Source of the DNA: a virus
DNA length: 64,000 bases
Strand: one strand, 5' to 3'
IMG/VR virus record: IMGVR_UViG_3300008120_000186
Coordinates: 1 to 64,000 of that record
Shown: in pieces, positions 5,941 to 18,029 of the stretch
How the letters are laid out: the number at the start of each line of letters is the position of its first letter
Position numbering within the stretch: position 1 is the first letter of the stretch
Position numbers and translations under genes: made by a program
The notes under the pieces: model-generated
The model's input: the letters and a program-made list of their open reading frames with translations, nothing else
What the model was told of the DNA's origin: nothing
Database searches by the model: none

Positions 5941-7649
5941 TTATTTTTCGTAATTTGAGATGGAAGAACTTTCTATCAACTGGTAACTTCTTTACTGAAC
6001 TGAACTTAGATGGCAACAACACCACGTTGATTGTTGGCTCTAATGGTTCGGGTAAGTCTACTATGCTTGACGCATTGTGCTTTGTGCTGTTTGGCAAACC
6101 ATTTCGTAATATCAACAAAGGACAACTTGTCAATACGATCAATCAAAAAGATTGTACTGTTGAAATTGAATTCGACACAGGCAATAAGTCATACAAAATC
6201 GTTCGTGGTATCAAACCAAATGTGTTTGAAATTTACTGCAATGGGCATCTAGTCAATCAAGATGCCGCAGTCAAAGACTATCAAGAACACCTAGAGAAAT
6301 TCATCCTCAAACTCAACTACAAATCTTTTACTCAAATTGTTTTGTTGGGTTCAGCATCGTTTACTCCATTCATGCAATTGTCTGCAAGCGATAGACGTTC
6401 TATCATTGAAGACTTGTTAGATATTCAAATCTTCTCACGCATGAATAGTGTTCTCAAAGATAAGTTTCTTTTGTTGAAAGAAAAACATTCGCAGTCGAAG
6501 TATGCTGTTGATCTGAAGAGTGAAAAGATTCAATATCAAATTCAGTTTATCGATTCATTAAATAAGAACAATGCAACTCAGATTTTATCTAAGCAACAAG
6601 ACATTGCTAACACACAATTGTTGATTGCAGAGAGTGAAACTAGATGCATAGCACTACAAACAACTTTGTCAGAAATATGTACACAAATTTCAGACAAGTC
6701 TAAAGTCGATGCAAAGCTATCTAAATTTACAACGATTCGTCAGAATTTAATAAAGACTCATAAAAAAATTGATACTGACATTGAGTTTTATCATAACAAT
6801 GATGATTGCCCAACATGCAAACAAGCTATTGGTAATGAATATAAGACACACATTGTAGAAGAACGAAACAAAAAATTAGTTGAAGTCGATGATGCATTGT
6901 CAAAAGTTAAAACTGAACTTGATCTTGTCAATGGTAGACTTGTTGAGATTGAAACGATTGCTGAACAAATTCAAACATTGAATTCTCAGTTGACATTTGA
7001 ACAGAGTGAGGTCAGAGTAAATCAAAGACACATTGACAATATTAATAAAGAGATTGTGCGATTGAATTCCGTTAAGGATGATGTTAATGCAGAACAAGAG
7101 AAACTTGCAACGTTGACTACAGAACTAGCAGAACTAGAATCTGAAATTAAAGTTATTGCTGAAGAGCGTTTGTATTTTGAGATTGCAACGAACTTATTGA
7201 AAGACACAGGCATCAAAACGAAAATCATTCGTCAATACATACCAGTCATCAACAAGCTAGTTAACAAGTATCTTGCATCATTAGATTTCTTTGTGAACTT
7301 CAATTTGGATGAATCATTCAAAGAAACAATCAAGTCTCGCCATCGTGATGATTTCACATATGCATCATTCAGTGAAGGTGAGAAACAACGCATCGATATG
7401 GCATTGATGTTGACATGGAGAGCAGTTGCCAAACTGAAGAACAGCGCCAGCACAAACATATTAATACTTGATGAAATCTTTGATTCATCATTAGACACAA
7501 ATGGTACAGAAGATTTGATGAAGATTCTAAACATGCTTGAAGGTTCTAACCTATTTGTCATATCACACAAAGGTGATATTCTACAAGACAAGTTTGCCAA
7601 CGTGATTAGATTCGAGAAGGTAAATAATTTTTCAAGGATTGCAAAATGA
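5937..7649 (+). CDS. 46: Recombination endonuclease subunit gp46 (Rad50/SbcC family)
   Basis: ATPase partner of gp47. 570 residues (T4: 560). Walker A GSNGSGKST is at about 34-42. Long coiled coils flank a zinc hook CPTC at about 291-294. The ABC signature FSEGEKQRIDMAL and Walker B ILILDEIFDSS lie in the C-terminal lobe. The small size of the coiled coil is normal for phage versions. It overlaps gene 47 and the following oxygenase gene by 4 bases each. Confidence 0.96.
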   Translation: MIIFRNLRWKNFLSTGNFFTELNLDGNNTTLIVGSNGSGKSTMLDALCFVLFGKPFRNINKGQLVNTINQKDCTVEIEFDTGNKSYKIVRGIKPNVFEIYCNGHLVNQDAAVKDYQEHLEKFILKLNYKSFTQIVLLGSASFTPFMQLSASDRRSIIEDLLDIQIFSRMNSVLKDKFLLLKEKHSQSKYAVDLKSEKIQYQIQFIDSLNKNNATQILSKQQDIANTQLLIAESETRCIALQTTLSEICTQISDKSKVDAKLSKFTTIRQNLIKTHKKIDTDIEFYHNNDDCPTCKQAIGNEYKTHIVEERNKKLVEVDDALSKVKTELDLVNGRLVEIETIAEQIQTLNSQLTFEQSEVRVNQRHIDNINKEIVRLNSVKDDVNAEQEKLATLTTELAELESEIKVIAEERLYFEIATNLLKDTGIKTKIIRQYIPVINKLVNKYLASLDFFVNFNLDESFKETIKSRHRDDFTYASFSEGEKQRIDMALMLTWRAVAKLKNSASTNILILDEIFDSSLDTNGTEDLMKILNMLEGSNLFVISHKGDILQDKFANVIRFEKVNNFSRIAK

Positions 7650-8278
7650 ACTTATATAATGTAGAAGCAGTATTTCCTCAACCATTTTCTGTCGAAGATT
7701 TAACGCTTGATGTTAATCAAATTGCAGATTTTTGTTATGATTTAAAAAACAACACGACCGTTAAAAATGAAAAAAGTAATTGTGGAGGTTGGCAGAGTGG
7801 TAATGTTGATATAGAGTCGATTAAAAATATAGAATTCAAAAAACTTCTCAATGAAATTCGTGTTGGAATAAACAAAGTTTCTTCTAATATTGGTATTGTT
7901 CCTAAATTGGATATTGGTAATTTGTGGATTAACATAAATCAATATGGAAATTATAATAATTCACATCGTCATACTGGATCAATTTTATCGGGAACTTTTT
8001 ACGTTAAAACTCCTGAAAATTGTGGAAATATTAGATTTGAAAATCCAATGGCACCTTTGATGGACTCTTATTTGCATTTTTGGAATTTTAAAGAGAATGA
8101 AGTGAGTTACTATCCTTGGTTTAGTAGTGGTGCAATGTTTCCTTGTAAAGAAAATATGATAATTATATTTCCATCATGGATGGAACACTCAGTTGATAGA
8201 AATTCAAATATAAATGAAGACAGAATTTCAATATCATTTAATACTGGAAAGGAACATAAAAATGAAAATACTCAGTGA
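7646..8278 (+). CDS. 2OG-Fe(II) oxygenase
   Basis: 210 residues with the layout of the putative 2OG-Fe(II) oxygenase family common in T4-like cyanophages. NNSHRHTGSILSGTFYV supplies a metal histidine on the first strand, and IIFPSWMEHSV plus RISISFN supply the distal histidine and the 2-oxoglutarate arginine. Substrate unknown; these enzymes hydroxylate protein or nucleic-acid side chains. It is translationally coupled to gene 46. Its sequence is more AT-rich than its neighbours, hinting at separate acquisition. Confidence 0.8.
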   Translation: MNLYNVEAVFPQPFSVEDLTLDVNQIADFCYDLKNNTTVKNEKSNCGGWQSGNVDIESIKNIEFKKLLNEIRVGINKVSSNIGIVPKLDIGNLWININQYGNYNNSHRHTGSILSGTFYVKTPENCGNIRFENPMAPLMDSYLHFWNFKENEVSYYPWFSSGAMFPCKENMIIIFPSWMEHSVDRNSNINEDRISISFNTGKEHKNENTQ

Positions 8279-8450
8279 ACATTATGGAACAGATATCGAT
8301 AGAGAAGCGCACGTTCATTACGATGAAGGATTCTATAAAGTTAGAATGCGAAATGAATTTGGCTCATACTTTGTAGCATTCTTTAATAATATAGATGAAG
8401 CTGAAAATTTCGCAGAAAATTATGTATTAGGAGAATCCCATGAACCTTGA
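8262..8450 (+). CDS. Small protein of unknown function
   Basis: 62 residues starting at the ATG after AAAGGAA; a longer in-frame start lacks a ribosome site. It overlaps the oxygenase before it and the deformylase after it. FYKVRMRNEFGSYFVAFFNN suggests a small alpha/beta protein. No family recognised. Confidence 0.6.
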   Translation: MKILSEHYGTDIDREAHVHYDEGFYKVRMRNEFGSYFVAFFNNIDEAENFAENYVLGESHEP

Positions 8451-8943
8451 ATTTGTTTCAGAAACATCACCCATTCTTTTGCAAGAATGCAAAGAGTTTG
8501 ATTTCTCAAATCCACCATTCGACCCAAAAGAGTTTGCACAAGCACTACACGACAAGATGGTGAAGAGTGATGGGCTTGGCTTGTCAGCAAATCAAGTCGG
8601 ACACCCATATCGTGTTTTTGTTATGAGAACGGCTAATGAACCATACGCAGTGTTCAATCCAAGAGTTGTTGATGTATCAGATAAAGAACTTACAATGAAA
8701 GAAGGTTGCTTAAGTTTTCCTTTGTTGTACTTGAATGTTAAACGTCCAGATTCGATACGTATTCGTTTTCAAGATGAAAATGGTGAAACAAGAACTGAAA
8801 GGTTTATTGGCATGACTGCCAGAATTGCATTGCATGAGTTTGACCATATGCTTGGAAAAGTGTATACTCAAAAGGCTTCAGCATTTGAAGCACAACGTGC
8901 AATGCGTAAACGTATGATTCTAAAACGTAAGGTAAAAAAATGA
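8440..8943 (+). CDS. def: Peptide deformylase
   Basis: Removes the formyl group from nascent N-terminal methionine. 167 residues with all three family motifs: GLGLSANQ (45-52), EGCLS (88-92, metal Cys) and HEFDH (132-136, metal His pair and catalytic Glu). Phage-encoded deformylases are common in cyanophages, where they are thought to sustain turnover of phage-directed photosystem or other short-lived proteins. The ribosome site TTAGGAGAA is strong and the gene overlaps both neighbours, so it is part of a tight operon. No lipoylated or membrane extension is seen. Confidence 0.95.
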   Translation: MNLEFVSETSPILLQECKEFDFSNPPFDPKEFAQALHDKMVKSDGLGLSANQVGHPYRVFVMRTANEPYAVFNPRVVDVSDKELTMKEGCLSFPLLYLNVKRPDSIRIRFQDENGETRTERFIGMTARIALHEFDHMLGKVYTQKASAFEAQRAMRKRMILKRKVKK

Positions 8944-10040
8944 AACCTTGGCAACATGGGTATGACATAGATTATCTCAAGGGACTTGAAACGCAGTATG
9001 CAGACTACAATGCATATACGTTATCGCCTTTTGCAAAGTATAAGAAGAACAATATTGCAGAGTCTTTGAAAAAAGGAACTCTTGTTTTGCTTGGTGATGC
9101 AATGATTGACGTAACAGTAAACAAAGTTGCATCAGACATTACGATGCATGGCGACACAGTTATTGCAACAAAAGTAAAGGGTGATGTTTCGATTGGAAAA
9201 CTTTCGGGCAACATCAATACTATCAAACAACAAATTTCTGTATTGTCGGGTAGAGATTTTTGGCTAACTGTATGGGCAGAGAACAAAGCACATTGCGACT
9301 TAGCTGAAGAGTTAGGTTTCTGTTATGTTGGTCCTAAGATCACAACATACGGAGAAGTACATGCAATTTACTTTAAGAGCAATAGTCCTTTTCCACGTTC
9401 GTTTCCTAAAGTAGAATCAACAGAATATTTGAGTATCAAAAAGATTGGTGCAATCATGCCAGAGTTTATTCAATCTGTTTCTGCTAAGTTAGCAACATTA
9501 CCTGCATTCACAAATCATTATAGTAACTACAACAAAGATAAAGCATGGTCTGCATTGTCACTACGTGGTTATCGTCCAGAATCAGACTTCATCACAAAGC
9601 CTTCAGAGATGAGTGATGACTGGAAAGAAAAAAACAAAGATGTGAAATTTGAATTGCAAGACACACCACTCTACGATATGTTTCCTGAGGTGCGTGAGTT
9701 GTTAAGTAAATACAAAGAAGTGCATCGTGTTCGTTTCATGCAATTGAAACCTGGCGGTGGAGAACTTGAAAGACATACCGATCAAGTTGATAAAGACTCT
9801 GGTGGTTCTAAAGGCAAACTTGCAAGACTACACATACCAATCATTACTAATCCAAACATGATTTTTACTGTGTGGGACACTAAAGGTACTCCACAGAAGA
9901 TACATATGGACGTTGGAGACTTGTGGTTCTTAGATACACGTAAGCCACATCAAGCAATCAACAATGGAACAGATAATAGAATTCACTTAGTCATAGACGC
10001 AATTTCTGAAGGAGAACTGTATGAGTCGCTTGTATCCTGA
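8940..10040 (+). CDS. Two-domain protein: GNAT-like N-terminus fused to aspartyl/asparaginyl beta-hydroxylase
   Basis: 366 residues. The C-terminal half (about 240-360) matches the aspartyl/asparaginyl beta-hydroxylase cupin: VRFMQLKPGGGELERHTDQV gives the metal HxD, RLHIPIITN follows, then GDLWFLDTRKPHQAINNG with the distal His and RIHLVIDA with the 2OG-binding Arg. The N-terminal half has acetyltransferase-like features (FWLTVWAENKAHCDLAEELGF, then VHAIYFK), but the assignment to GNAT is tentative. It sits at the head of a four-gene cluster with a PLP enzyme, dCMP deaminase and DNA methyltransferase, which suggests modification of a nucleic acid or of a small amine donor. It overlaps both neighbours. 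Confidence 0.75.
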   Translation: MKPWQHGYDIDYLKGLETQYADYNAYTLSPFAKYKKNNIAESLKKGTLVLLGDAMIDVTVNKVASDITMHGDTVIATKVKGDVSIGKLSGNINTIKQQISVLSGRDFWLTVWAENKAHCDLAEELGFCYVGPKITTYGEVHAIYFKSNSPFPRSFPKVESTEYLSIKKIGAIMPEFIQSVSAKLATLPAFTNHYSNYNKDKAWSALSLRGYRPESDFITKPSEMSDDWKEKNKDVKFELQDTPLYDMFPEVRELLSKYKEVHRVRFMQLKPGGGELERHTDQVDKDSGGSKGKLARLHIPIITNPNMIFTVWDTKGTPQKIHMDVGDLWFLDTRKPHQAINNGTDNRIHLVIDAISEGELYESLVS

Positions 10041-10785
10041 AGAAGTTTCTGATATAATTAAAGATTGGAAAGACCCAAACCCTGCACCGATAGTCGAGAT
10101 GCACCATGGCTTTCATGTTGTGCGTGATGACTTATTAGAGTATGGAAGTAAGAGTCGATTCATCGACCATCTTGTGAAGACTACCGAATGTGACGAATGG
10201 GTCTTTGGTGGTGCAAACAAAGTTGGTTGGGGTCCTATATCATTAACCTATGTATGTAATCTCTATGGAAAAAAAGCAACGTTCTTTATGGCTAAACGCA
10301 AAGAGCCTACATGGCATCAGCAAAGAGTATTGGACCTTGGCGGCACTATTCATTGGGTTGACAATGGTATGCTTACTGTGACAAAAGCAAGAGCAAGACG
10401 TTATCAAGAAGAAGATACAAAGCGCAGACAATGTTTGCCTTTGGGGTTAGAACATCCATCTGTGCTTGCATCGATTGTTAAAGTTGCTAGAGATTTAAAT
10501 ATCAAGCCAACAGAGATTTGGACTGTTGCATCAAGCGGAACGTTAAATCGTGGACTGCAATTAGCATTTCCTGATGTGCCTGCATATGCAGTAGAGATTG
10601 GACACAAGATGAGTGATTATGAAAAAGGTCGTGCTATCACTATGCGTTCACCTTACAAGTATGACCAAGTAGTGGAAGAGAGTCAAGCACCTCCATATCC
10701 ATCTGAGAAATACTACGATGCTAAACTTTGGCAGTTTGTAGTGAGTAGTGGGAAACCAGGCGCACTAATCTGGAATGTAGCTTAA
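10021..10785 (+). CDS. Fold-type II PLP-dependent enzyme (ACC deaminase / D-cysteine desulfhydrase-like)
   Basis: 254 residues. VVRDDLLEYGSKSRFIDHL matches the family signature around the Schiff-base lysine (K44 here, in place of the usual GNK). VASSGTLNRGL at about 170-180 matches the Ser/Gly-rich loop that holds the PLP phosphate. It is shorter than the bacterial enzymes (about 330), so it is either a minimal catalyst or a repurposed fold. It starts after a strong GAAGGAG site inside the end of the hydroxylase gene. Natural substrates of the family are D-cysteine, ACC or diaminopropionate; which applies here is unknown. Its context argues for making or transferring an amino-acid-derived group. 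Confidence 0.7.
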   Translation: MSRLYPEEVSDIIKDWKDPNPAPIVEMHHGFHVVRDDLLEYGSKSRFIDHLVKTTECDEWVFGGANKVGWGPISLTYVCNLYGKKATFFMAKRKEPTWHQQRVLDLGGTIHWVDNGMLTVTKARARRYQEEDTKRRQCLPLGLEHPSVLASIVKVARDLNIKPTEIWTVASSGTLNRGLQLAFPDVPAYAVEIGHKMSDYEKGRAITMRSPYKYDQVVEESQAPPYPSEKYYDAKLWQFVVSSGKPGALIWNVA

Positions 10786-10807
10786 TTAATATTCAAAGGA
10801 GTCGAAC

Positions 10808-11059
10808 ATGAGTAACGAAGAAGATAAATTTAAAAAATCTAAACGAATCCTTGAAGACGAAAACGCAATACGAAAGCAATTGAAAATTGCAAAAGCGTAT
10901 AATATACCAGTTGAGTCTCCGCATCAATTAGCTAAACATCATGTCTTAGATTGTGGGAATCCAAATTGCGTGATGTGTGCAAATCCTAGAAAAGTATGGA
11001 AAGAAAAAACGATTCAAGAAAGACGTTTTGAACAGACAGAAAAATTTGATAATGATTAA
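10808..11059 (+). CDS. Small Cys/His protein, likely zinc-binding
   Basis: 83 residues, basic and charged N-terminus, then KHHVLDCGNPNCVMCANPRK, which offers His plus three Cys for a small zinc site. Similar small proteins with a C...C..C-NPRK block occur in many T4-like phages, function unknown. An AAGGAGTC ribosome site precedes it, and it overlaps the dCMP deaminase start by 8 bases. Confidence 0.7.
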   Translation: MSNEEDKFKKSKRILEDENAIRKQLKIAKAYNIPVESPHQLAKHHVLDCGNPNCVMCANPRKVWKEKTIQERRFEQTEKFDND

Positions 11060-11507
11060 AGAAAAATATCTTGGCGCATACATGAAGACTGCAAGAGTCT
11101 TTGCCGAATTGAGTACTGCTAGACGCAAACAAGTTGGTGCTGTTGTCGTTAAAGATGACAGAATCATTTCAATCGGTTACAATGGTATGCCAAGTGGATG
11201 GGATAACAATTGTGAAGAAGAAGTAGTGGTTGCAGTAGTTGACGGAGTGCCACAAAGAGAGATTAAACAATTAAAAACAAAACCCGAAGTTCTCCATGCC
11301 GAGTCTAATGCAATTGCCAAACTTGCTAAGTCTACCGAGAGTGGTGATGGTGCAAGTATGTTTATCACTTGCGCTCCATGCATGGACTGTGCTAAAATGA
11401 TATTTCAAACAGGTATTAAAGAAGTCTTCTATGCCGAAGATTATCGTGATGATGCAGGAATCAATTTCCTAAATAAATGTGGAATAACAGTAAAACAGAT
11501 AACATGA
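11052..11507 (+). CDS. cd: dCMP deaminase
   Basis: Converts dCMP to dUMP, feeding dTMP synthesis (ThyX is encoded at 46.3 kb). From this ATG the protein is 151 residues; an upstream in-frame start would run into the previous gene without a ribosome site. The zinc site is HAE (82-84) and PCxxC (109-113), with the substrate region GYNGMPSGW near 42-50. The T4 homologue is gp cd. Its ATGA overlap with the methyltransferase gene suggests co-translation, so this copy may also serve the putative modification cassette. Confidence 0.93.
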   Translation: MIKEKYLGAYMKTARVFAELSTARRKQVGAVVVKDDRIISIGYNGMPSGWDNNCEEEVVVAVVDGVPQREIKQLKTKPEVLHAESNAIAKLAKSTESGDGASMFITCAPCMDCAKMIFQTGIKEVFYAEDYRDDAGINFLNKCGITVKQIT

Positions 11508-13078
11508 CAAAACATTTTTATGAACGTAACGATTGGTTATTGAACCACGAAACAAACAAGACATTTGAAGAAGTGCAATGGATGACTGAAGACGAATTTC
11601 GTCAATGGTTTATTGATTTGCGTAAAGCAGTTGTACACTCATGGGACACTATGGGTCAACCACCAAGAGTTGGTTGGAGTGAAGATGCAATCAAAAAACA
11701 ATTCAAAGAGATGTATGGATTCTCTGTGCATGAGTTTGAACACGTTGACGAATTAACTGGTGAGAAAGATGTAATTCGAAACACTAGCGTAGTTGGCAAT
11801 GCCGCTAATCAATGGTTTCCAACCATGATGAAGACACGTATCAACTACACTAAGAATGACGATGGGCTTTCAATCTATGACCACTTTCTGAAAGATGAAT
11901 TGCTTGAGAAGACTTTGAAGTATTCTAAGCGACACTTCAAACGTGATTCGTTCTATGCATATTCAAATACTGTTAAAGTCAATGAGATTATCAACGTTGG
12001 TTCTTATAATGTGAAGTTTAAGAATGGCGATGATTTTGTTCGTTGGTTTGAAGAGAACAACATTCGTCAGTATGGTTATGACTATTGGGTAGAGAGTCGT
12101 GATGATGATGAAGAGTATAGTGGTTACAATGAACAACTCAAGGGCGTAAAGTATCTTGAAGTGACGCAAGAAATTCTAGAGACAATTCCATCTAAGTCTA
12201 CAATGAACATAAAGTCGCATGACCAGAAGAAGTATCGTCTGCGTATGTACAAGTACGGACAAAAGATTTTTCCTGTTGGCTTGAAAGCATTTCGTGTATC
12301 GTGGTGCCAATATGCTGTTAACTTCCCACCTTTGACTGCAAAACTTCTTTATGAAAAATTTACTAGACACGTTAAGAACCAAGACAGAATTGTTGTTTAC
12401 GATCCCTCTTCTGGTTGGGGTGGGCGTATTTTGGGTGCTATGGCTTCTCGCACTTCTCTTCCTTTACACTATGTGGGTACTGATCCTAATACCGATCACA
12501 GCATTGTTAGCGATAGCGGCAGTCCTAGTACTAAATATGCCGACTTGGCTGAGTTCTATAACTCCGCAAAGAACGAAGGAGTTTTGTTCGAACAGTCAAA
12601 CACTTACGAAGTTTTTCAACTTGGTTCTGAAGTTGTCCGAGATGATAGTTCGTTCCAAAAGTACAAGGGCGAATTAGATATGGTGTTCACTAGCCCTCCT
12701 TACTTTGCTAAGGAAGCGTATAGTGAAGACCCAACGCAATCATATAAAAAGTTTACTGGCTATGATGCATGGCGTGAAGGTTTCTTGCGTCCAACGCTAG
12801 AGACTGCTGTTGAGTATTTGCGTAATGACAGATACTTACTTTGGAATATTGCTGATGCTAAGTTTGGTGCTGACATGTTGCCACTTGAAAAAGATAGCAA
12901 AGACATTTTGGAATCACTCGGTATGCAATTCAAAGGTGTGGTTAAGATGGCACTAGCACAAATGCCAGGCGGCAATCGTATCGACCCTGACACTGGTTTG
13001 CCAAAAGCAAAGAATTTCTGCAAAGTAAACGGGATGTGGTTGAAGTATGAACCGATTTTTGTTTTTTACAAGCCGTAA
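11504..13078 (+). CDS. Large SAM-dependent DNA methyltransferase-like protein
   Basis: 524 residues from the ATGA-coupled start. Motif I is VVYDPSSGWGGRILGAM and motif IV is TSPPYF, the (S/D/N)PPY catalytic box of amino-methyltransferases acting on adenine N6 or cytosine N4. The SAM domain is in the C-terminal 250 residues. The first 260 residues are a separate domain with an acidic stretch (SRDDDEEYSGYNEQ), perhaps for DNA recognition or a second activity. It ends a cluster with a PLP enzyme and an Fe(II) hydroxylase, so it could make a plain methylated base or be one step of a larger modification. The DNA around motif I uses different codons from the flanks. Confidence 0.8.
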   Translation: MTKHFYERNDWLLNHETNKTFEEVQWMTEDEFRQWFIDLRKAVVHSWDTMGQPPRVGWSEDAIKKQFKEMYGFSVHEFEHVDELTGEKDVIRNTSVVGNAANQWFPTMMKTRINYTKNDDGLSIYDHFLKDELLEKTLKYSKRHFKRDSFYAYSNTVKVNEIINVGSYNVKFKNGDDFVRWFEENNIRQYGYDYWVESRDDDEEYSGYNEQLKGVKYLEVTQEILETIPSKSTMNIKSHDQKKYRLRMYKYGQKIFPVGLKAFRVSWCQYAVNFPPLTAKLLYEKFTRHVKNQDRIVVYDPSSGWGGRILGAMASRTSLPLHYVGTDPNTDHSIVSDSGSPSTKYADLAEFYNSAKNEGVLFEQSNTYEVFQLGSEVVRDDSSFQKYKGELDMVFTSPPYFAKEAYSEDPTQSYKKFTGYDAWREGFLRPTLETAVEYLRNDRYLLWNIADAKFGADMLPLEKDSKDILESLGMQFKGVVKMALAQMPGGNRIDPDTGLPKAKNFCKVNGMWLKYEPIFVFYKP

Positions 13079-17168: not shown

Positions 17169-18029
17169 ATGCAATTTGAACTTGATATCCAAAAACTAAG
17201 AACCAAGAAACTTTTTGTCGCAACACCAATGTATGGTGGACAATGCCACGGAGCATACACTAAAGCAATTACAGACCTTATGATCCTCTGTACCAAATAT
17301 GGTATCGAGGCTAAACTGTTTTTCATCTTTAACGAATCACTAGTGCAACGTGCTAGAAATTATTTGACAGATGAGTTTGTTCGTAGTGGTTATGACCATA
17401 TGATTTTTATTGATAGCGATATTCACTTTGAGCCACAAGACGTTTTAGTGATGATGCACTTTGCGTCAAGCCGTGATGACATGGATGTTGTTTGTGGTCC
17501 ATATCCAAAGAAAGCAATTTCTTGGGAGAAGATTAAAATCGCAGTTGACAAAGGATATGCAGACAAGAATCCAAATCAATTGGAAGAGTTTGTTGGTGAC
17601 TATGTTTTCAATCCAGCAGATGGCGTAACTGAGTTTCGAATCGATGAGCCAGTTGAAGTGAAAGAAAGCGGCACAGGTTTCATGTTGATTACCCGTGAAG
17701 CACTTCAAAAATATGACAAAGCATTCCCAATGCAAAGCTATAAACCAGATCATTTGCGTACTGCAAACTTTGATGGTAGCAGAGAAATCATGGCTTACTT
17801 TGATTGCGTTATTTGTCCAGATACAAAACGTTATCTCTCAGAAGATTATATGTTCTGTCAGTGGATGCGTAAAGCTGGTGGTAAGGTGTGGTTGCTTCCA
17901 TGGATGCGTTTGAAACATGCTGGCAGTTATATCTTTGGTGGTTCTTTACAAGCACTTGCGGCAATTAATGCGTCACCTACTGCTGGTAATGATGTTATGC
18001 AACGAACTGTGGCTGAAAATTTGAAATGA
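17169..18029 (+). CDS. GT-A-type glycosyltransferase
   Basis: 286 residues. LFVATPMYGGQCHGAYTKAI, then SLVQRARNYLTDEF and HMIFIDSDIHF, give the nucleotide-sugar-binding N-terminus and the DxD metal motif (DSD). The C-terminal SEDYMFCQWMRKAGG with an acidic residue resembles the catalytic/acceptor part of GT2-like enzymes. Possible acceptors are phage DNA bases, virion proteins or host surface glycans; nothing in the context fixes which. The strong promoter in the terminator loop drives it, followed by a GGAGAG ribosome site. Confidence 0.75.
   Translation: MQFELDIQKLRTKKLFVATPMYGGQCHGAYTKAITDLMILCTKYGIEAKLFFIFNESLVQRARNYLTDEFVRSGYDHMIFIDSDIHFEPQDVLVMMHFASSRDDMDVVCGPYPKKAISWEKIKIAVDKGYADKNPNQLEEFVGDYVFNPADGVTEFRIDEPVEVKESGTGFMLITREALQKYDKAFPMQSYKPDHLRTANFDGSREIMAYFDCVICPDTKRYLSEDYMFCQWMRKAGGKVWLLPWMRLKHAGSYIFGGSLQALAAINASPTAGNDVMQRTVAENLK

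Follow-up and report, generated by a model that had tools for sequence, protein, structure and literature searches.

A phage gene set of a PLP enzyme, a GNAT-like/hydroxylase fusion and a DNA methyltransferase as a candidate DNA-modification module

Why would a phage chain a gene for pyridoxal phosphate (PLP) chemistry on amino acids to genes for an iron-dependent hydroxylase and a DNA methyltransferase? The question is raised by a freshwater phage, IMG/VR record IMGVR_UViG_3300008120_000186, of which we analysed positions 1 to 64,000 (the window); the record is 66 kb long and itself fragmentary. The core set consists of GA, a GNAT-like domain fused to a 2-oxoglutarate (2OG)-Fe(II) hydroxylase (8940–10040; Pfam Asp_Arg_Hydrox, E 4e-12, above cut-off), PALP, a fold-type II PLP enzyme (10021–10785; Pfam PALP 0.003, phrog_7093 8e-29), and MT, an SPPY-type DNA methyltransferase (11504–13078; N6_N4_Mtase 0.0013, phrog_12517 and phrog_498). 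With somewhat better than even confidence, we propose that these three genes form a phage post-replicative DNA-modification module in which an amino-acid-derived group would be built or reworked on the base targeted by MT. The proposal rests on gene association, folds and conserved active-site residues. We infer that DNA is the substrate because of the methyltransferase family, the link to ParB and the operon of mycobacteriophage LilMcDreamy, all described below; the base, the order of steps and the product are likewise predicted.

A preliminary description of this DNA had proposed an undescribed modification cassette with amino-acid chemistry and had named co-conservation in other phages as one of its tests. 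Co-conservation was found, and it extends beyond the window's own lineage. A profile search with PALP returned at least 539 viral relatives, and the PALP-MT part is present in hundreds of viral contigs. In the 80 viral loci kept for neighbourhood analysis (all counts given here are of loci, not of independent evolutionary events), an MT gene paired with ParB ends beside the start of PALP in 77, within 60 nt in 61 of them. Of 34 prophage-like loci from alphaproteobacterial genomes, 25 have the same MT-then-PALP layout, and several of the remaining loci are truncated. When the search was started from MT instead, PALP came immediately after it in 68 of 80 loci and ParB was present in 76. The window PALP is homologous to the PALPs of these ParB-linked loci (5e-40), the window MT aligns with their MTs (phmmer 1.2e-6), and the window cassette has in common with them that PALP lies beside, or is fused to, an SPPY methyltransferase of one family. 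Relatives of PALP occur in three named phages, Erythrobacter R6L, Erythrobacter ZS04 and Microcystis Mae-JY30. Mae-JY30 has adjacent separate genes for ParB, MT and PALP. In R6L a single protein carries ParB (residues 8–214), MT motif I (315–381), PALP (395–622) and the remainder of MT, motif IV included (635–795); PALP is thus nested inside the methyltransferase, between motifs I and IV. Clustering of neighbours around ParB-MT-PALP gave no conserved extra tailoring gene; the clusters comprised genes of terminase-like or structural type and antisense open reading frames (ORFs) that were uninformative.

GA also joins this pair in unrelated phages. Among the 12 MT loci without PALP directly next to MT, one (L374) has the order ParB-MT-GA-PALP. 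Its GA aligns over the full length with the window family, and the N-terminal half alone aligns at E 2.7e-15. A search with this GA, which comes from an unrelated phage contig, returned 16 loci at 39–63% identity, itself excepted. MT adjoins GA in 15 of these 16 loci, the sixteenth being cut by the contig end, and PALP is present in 14. The order is MT-GA-PALP in most of them, MT-PALP-GA in L398 and GA-PALP-MT in the window. Gene order thus varies while content is kept, which argues for a joint function and is the strongest evidence in this analysis. Two loci have one more gene, coding for about 200 aa, inserted in the MT-GA-PALP set (L392, 5366–5986; L393, 6308–6907); the two genes have no Pfam match and look related by eye.

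Within the window's phage group, whose contigs reach 143–172 kb, a gp46-like (SbcC) gene upstream is common to the relatives. We surveyed 37 non-redundant loci that contain SbcC as well as MT (MT below 95% identity). Between the two genes, 22 loci have the GNAT-like domain, hydroxylase and PALP, 6 the GNAT-like domain and hydroxylase, 3 a hydroxylase with a separate GNAT, and 3 a GNAT only; one locus each has PALP only, the fusion plus a GNAT, or none. At least one of GNAT, hydroxylase and PALP is therefore present in 36 of 37. These phages share ancestry, so that their synteny alone could be inherited. The dCMP deaminase and the small Cys/His protein, which the preliminary description had counted as members, lie between SbcC and MT in 10 and 9 of the 37 loci, respectively, about a quarter each, and we regard them as optional neighbours. 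In other relatives the deaminase is found several kb downstream of MT, and its role here is ordinary nucleotide metabolism. In the window these two genes separate PALP from MT; in relatives such as L029 no gene lies between. The wider idea of an undescribed cassette with amino-acid chemistry fared better than this membership: GA, PALP and MT co-occur in varied orders beyond the lineage, PALP sits inside the R6L methyltransferase, and a homologue of the hydroxylase accompanies an amino acid:DNA transferase (ADDT).

What might PALP do? Its predicted structure (pLDDT 92.9) gave the best Foldseek E-value with threonine deaminase (1ve5) and, among the matches listed, the top template-modelling score (0.77) with 1j0a, a homologue of 1-aminocyclopropane-1-carboxylate (ACC) deaminase; D-cysteine desulfhydrase (4d8t) was also matched. 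By its model, PALP appears to be kin to ACC deaminase, D-cysteine desulfhydrase and threonine deaminase, and the fold alone leaves the branch unsettled; the earlier label 'desulfhydrase-type' is supported by these fold matches. The Schiff-base lysine and phosphate loop, previously described as intact, are conserved: Ser172-Gly173 is invariant in all 14 divergent copies and Lys44 in 13, the remaining copy (L164) being unaligned there. Residues 232–235 are Tyr-Asp-Ala-Lys, and Tyr-Asp-x-Lys is conserved across phage groups. The L164 copy (11121–11942; Pfam 0.00021) is highly divergent, with Lys44 and Tyr232 regions that fail to align with the other copies, and adjoins GA and a second GNAT. Just downstream of PALP, L118 (3492–4511) and L164 (12314–12748) carry a look-alike gene that is glycosyltransferase-like by eye and, in the L118 copy, has no Pfam match. 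In L159, a sugar-nucleotide epimerase-like gene (11112–12020) lies between GA and PALP.

The nearness of the PALP fold to D-cysteine desulfhydrase also raises the alternative that PALP releases sulfide for DNA thiolation by a partner resembling PP-loop or PAPS (3′-phosphoadenosine 5′-phosphosulfate) reductase enzymes. PAPS-reductase genes indeed lie near PALP in R6L and between PALP and MT in L159. They were seen in these two loci only, with none in the window cassette, and no relative of the R6L gene turned up in the other PALP-MT loci that were scanned. We consider this alternative very improbable and rejected it, a PAPS reductase not being a conserved neighbour. We also rejected the idea that ParB is a free serine kinase of the SbnI/SerK kind that feeds O-phosphoserine to PALP, because the matches of ParB are to Noc/Spo0J, not to SerK, and ParB is absent from the window.

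GA has two parts, a GNAT-like N-terminal domain (about residues 1–150) and a 2OG-Fe(II) hydroxylase of the Asp_Arg_Hydrox/proline-hydroxylase type (about 165–366), and its AlphaFold2 model, from an input alignment of 25 GA proteins, has a pLDDT of 92.3. The GNAT-like domain has no Pfam match at E ≤ 1. It matches, in a profile comparison (E 1.5e-6), stand-alone phage GNATs that occupy the corresponding place in relatives and themselves match Pfam Acetyltransf_1, and the strands and helices of the model are arranged in a GNAT-like order; profile and model together support the GNAT-like call made earlier. The C-terminal half matched 4p7w, 7v4f and AspH in Foldseek, 4p7w also at the sequence level (E 5e-9). 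Its fold neighbours comprise L-proline cis-4-hydroxylase, hydroxylases of one nucleoside-antibiotic pathway and AspH, and those with the lowest E-values hydroxylate free or carrier-bound amino acids. Judged by the model, the hydroxylase groups closest with amino-acid hydroxylases, some of them from a nucleoside-antibiotic pathway. The HxD...H iron site and the 2OG-binding arginine (His279, Asp281, His337 and Arg347) do not vary among 12 proteins drawn from different phage groups. In L397 (1109–2983), an intein-like insert (Pfam Intein_splicing E 0.00044, under the curated cut-off) interrupts GA at HYSxYNK, a conserved motif of its hydroxylase. Inteins favour conserved sites in important enzymes.

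Could GA act on proteins instead? A peptide deformylase gene (PDF; 8440–8943, + strand; Pfam 2.7e-36) overlaps GA by 4 nt and is the usual upstream neighbour in the group (31 of 37 loci), RimI is the nearest NCBIfam model to the relatives' stand-alone GNAT, and AspH and prolyl hydroxylases have protein substrates. PDF, GNAT and hydroxylase might then modify proteins or the translation machinery, with MT as a bystander. We think this improbable. The folds that GA matches at the best E-values belong to enzymes acting on free or carrier-bound amino acids, and it is not evident what a fold-type II PLP enzyme would do in a pathway of this kind. The ParB-type loci have MT and PALP, and no PDF was seen beside them, the genes there having been read with GA, PALP, MT and ParB profiles only. 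Finally, the hydroxylase of LilMcDreamy sits among DNA-modifying genes.

This LilMcDreamy homologue aligns with the GA hydroxylase at E 5.7e-32 over 289 columns, and the gene order there is ParB, a weak Tet_JBP match, ADDT and then the hydroxylase homologue. A search with the homologue's protein returned itself only. The corresponding place in related actinophages is taken by ParB, a Tet-like protein, aGPT-PPlase2 and a DNA kinase or, in others, by an oxidoreductase and a kinase-like gene (names as annotated). LilMcDreamy gene 2 (NC_051582, 855–1787) is called a queuine tRNA-ribosyltransferase in one of two records; its only Pfam match is Tet_JBP, at E 0.0022, and from its sequence that annotation looks wrong.

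The methyltransferase is the third component. Its ORF is open from 11477, and the likely start is the ATG at 11504, which overlaps the stop of the deaminase gene. A long N-terminal part without assigned function precedes motif I (DPSSGWGGR) and then motif IV (SPPY, residue 406 counted from 11477). In the PDB, the ParB-linked phage MTs match CcrM and a putative modification methylase, and the sole matches to the known-defence models of PADLOC were methyltransferase profiles, one of them ParB-bearing. MT thus looks normal for the N6/N4 class, as would be expected if it made ordinary N6-methyladenine or N4-methylcytosine against restriction and PALP and GA were metabolic or host-takeover cargo sharing its operon. 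Loci in which PALP does not directly follow MT (12 of 80), and relatives wholly without PALP, point the same way, as does palindrome avoidance, which suggests restriction pressure. We consider this alternative unlikely, if less so than the other two: related MTs have the same two partners in different phage groups and gene orders, and a PALP inserted in an MT is not expected of unrelated cargo.

Several observations weigh against a joint modification module. In two relatives, on contigs of 143 and 163 kb, GA-MT is retained without PALP, which is hence dispensable there. The T4-like group of the window is without ParB: PF02195 was unmatched in the window record and three long relatives, with the L374 record as positive control. 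The acyl-CoA pyrophosphate loop (Q/RxxGxG/A) is not recognisable in the GNAT-like domain of GA, where the loop is shortened, and Pseudomonas phage PfAn1 has a hydroxylase adjoining an acetyltransferase with no MT beside them. Six-base palindromes are strongly avoided in the window, as for DNA exposed to restriction, and its first 49 kb contain no CGCG (log observed/expected about -4.5). The avoidance of CGCG and palindromes extends to relatives that carry PALP and is less marked in two that do not. Palindrome avoidance is weak evidence, since M6, a phage whose thymine is modified, shares it; T4 hardly does. As this comparison was not decisive, we set palindrome statistics aside as a test of modification.

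How would a module of GA, PALP and MT work? MT would select the DNA site and flip the base, its family pointing to the exocyclic amine of adenine or cytosine; it would be the targeting enzyme and possibly transfer a group as well. PALP would supply or rework an amino-acid-derived group at the flipped base. It might form an aminoacrylate from a serine- or cysteine-like donor, to be captured by the base amine, or perform PLP chemistry on a 3-amino-3-carboxypropyl group taken from S-adenosylmethionine (SAM) by the MT-like enzyme; sequence alone does not discriminate between the aminoacrylate and aminocarboxypropyl routes. GA would act last, its hydroxylase hydroxylating the amino-acid moiety and its GNAT-like domain binding or acylating it. 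We put forward more tentatively, as a possibility somewhat short of even, that the product belongs to a new class of bases, with an alanyl- or aminobutyryl-type group installed on the exocyclic amine of adenine or cytosine by a PLP enzyme inside or beside an N-type methyltransferase, hydroxylated by GA and perhaps acylated.

The surrounding genes are as follows. The ORF positions and chaining reported earlier were all confirmed on the + strand, GA and PALP overlapping by 20 nt; the description had been titled as a four-gene cassette, and its own text names five. Between PALP and MT lie the small Cys/His protein (10808–11059; phrog_4499, 5.5e-8) and the dCMP deaminase (ATG about 11052, to 11507; dCMP_cyt_deam_1, 8.7e-22). 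Upstream of PDF, a second 2OG-Fe(II) oxygenase (7646–8278; 2OG-FeII_Oxy_5, phrog_81) occurs at the same place in some close relatives only. A possible glycosyltransferase at 17169–18029 (Glyco_transf_21, E 0.00042, just under the cut-off) is the first recognised gene past MT in PALP-less relatives and syntenic in others; it might act on DNA.

We found no description of a PALP-MT(-GA) module or of GA in the searchable literature; an earlier one in key papers outside it is possible. To our knowledge, the amino-acid DNA routes known or found start from hydroxymethyl-pyrimidines or carboxymethylcytosine. If our proposal is true, the pairing of a PLP enzyme with an N6/N4-type methyltransferase would open a separate entry route to hypermodification and couple amino-acid chemistry to a flipped DNA base in a new way. 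Hundreds of MT-PALP loci that now lack annotation, many of them in alphaproteobacterial prophages, would also gain a function. A direct test is possible because cultured carriers exist: R6L, ZS04 and Mae-JY30 for PALP-MT, and LilMcDreamy for the hydroxylase.

How does the candidate module compare with known systems? Mom of phage Mu makes N6-carbamoylmethyladenine, with a GNAT-like fold that acts on DNA adenine without ordinary acetyl transfer. Unlike the window cassette, it is not known to involve a PLP enzyme or a hydroxylase. The Tet/JBP-ADDT operons of LilMcDreamy, Wooper and Phelemich share with the wider module a ParB partner and, in LilMcDreamy, the homologous hydroxylase, and like the ParB-MT-PALP loci they adjoin terminase genes. 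They differ in that their enzymes are a Tet-like oxygenase and ADDT; no sharing of MT, PALP, Tet_JBP or ADDT with the window was seen, and the LilMcDreamy protein, in contrast to the window GA, has an N-terminal half that is not demonstrably GNAT-like. Tet_JBP (PF12851) was unmatched, with no positive control matched, LilMcDreamy gp2 itself reaching just the E-value given above; for ADDT and aGPT-Pplase3, PF18724 and PF18746 were unmatched, PF18724 being positive in LilMcDreamy and PF18746 lacking a positive control.

PLP enzymes act in the thymidine hypermodification of M6-like phages (PMC9476957). This route through 5-hydroxymethyldeoxyuridine (M6/SN1, ViI and PhiW-14) is likewise phage-encoded and post-replicative, with a PLP enzyme acting on a base-linked amino-acid or amine group (PMC9476957). 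It begins at hydroxymethyluracil, however, and employs a hydroxymethylase, a DNA kinase and aGPT-PPlases, whereas the partner in the window is an N-type methyltransferase. No dUMP hydroxymethylase (PF00303) was found in the window record, which is fragmentary, or in three relatives of 143–172 kb, with 9 of 14 control genomes positive. In the CmoA-CmoX-CmoY carboxymethylcytosine system, a methyltransferase homologue moves a non-methyl group to DNA and glycine is ligated afterwards (PMC12783734). The likeness lies in a handle set by a methyltransferase homologue, an attached amino acid and ParBc genes nearby; the difference lies in a C5-cytosine SPPC enzyme (the window MT has SPPY), carboxy-SAM and an ATP-dependent ligase, and the main text mentions no PLP enzyme (PMC12783734). 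The CmoB family (PF08003) was unmatched in the window record; CmoA and CmoY were not searched for. ParB-N6_N4 methyltransferase fusions, finally, are reported to be enriched in phages and prophages (PMC12704722). The main text of that study does not mention PLP or pyridoxal, and to the same ParB-MT part our analysis adds the links to PALP and GA.

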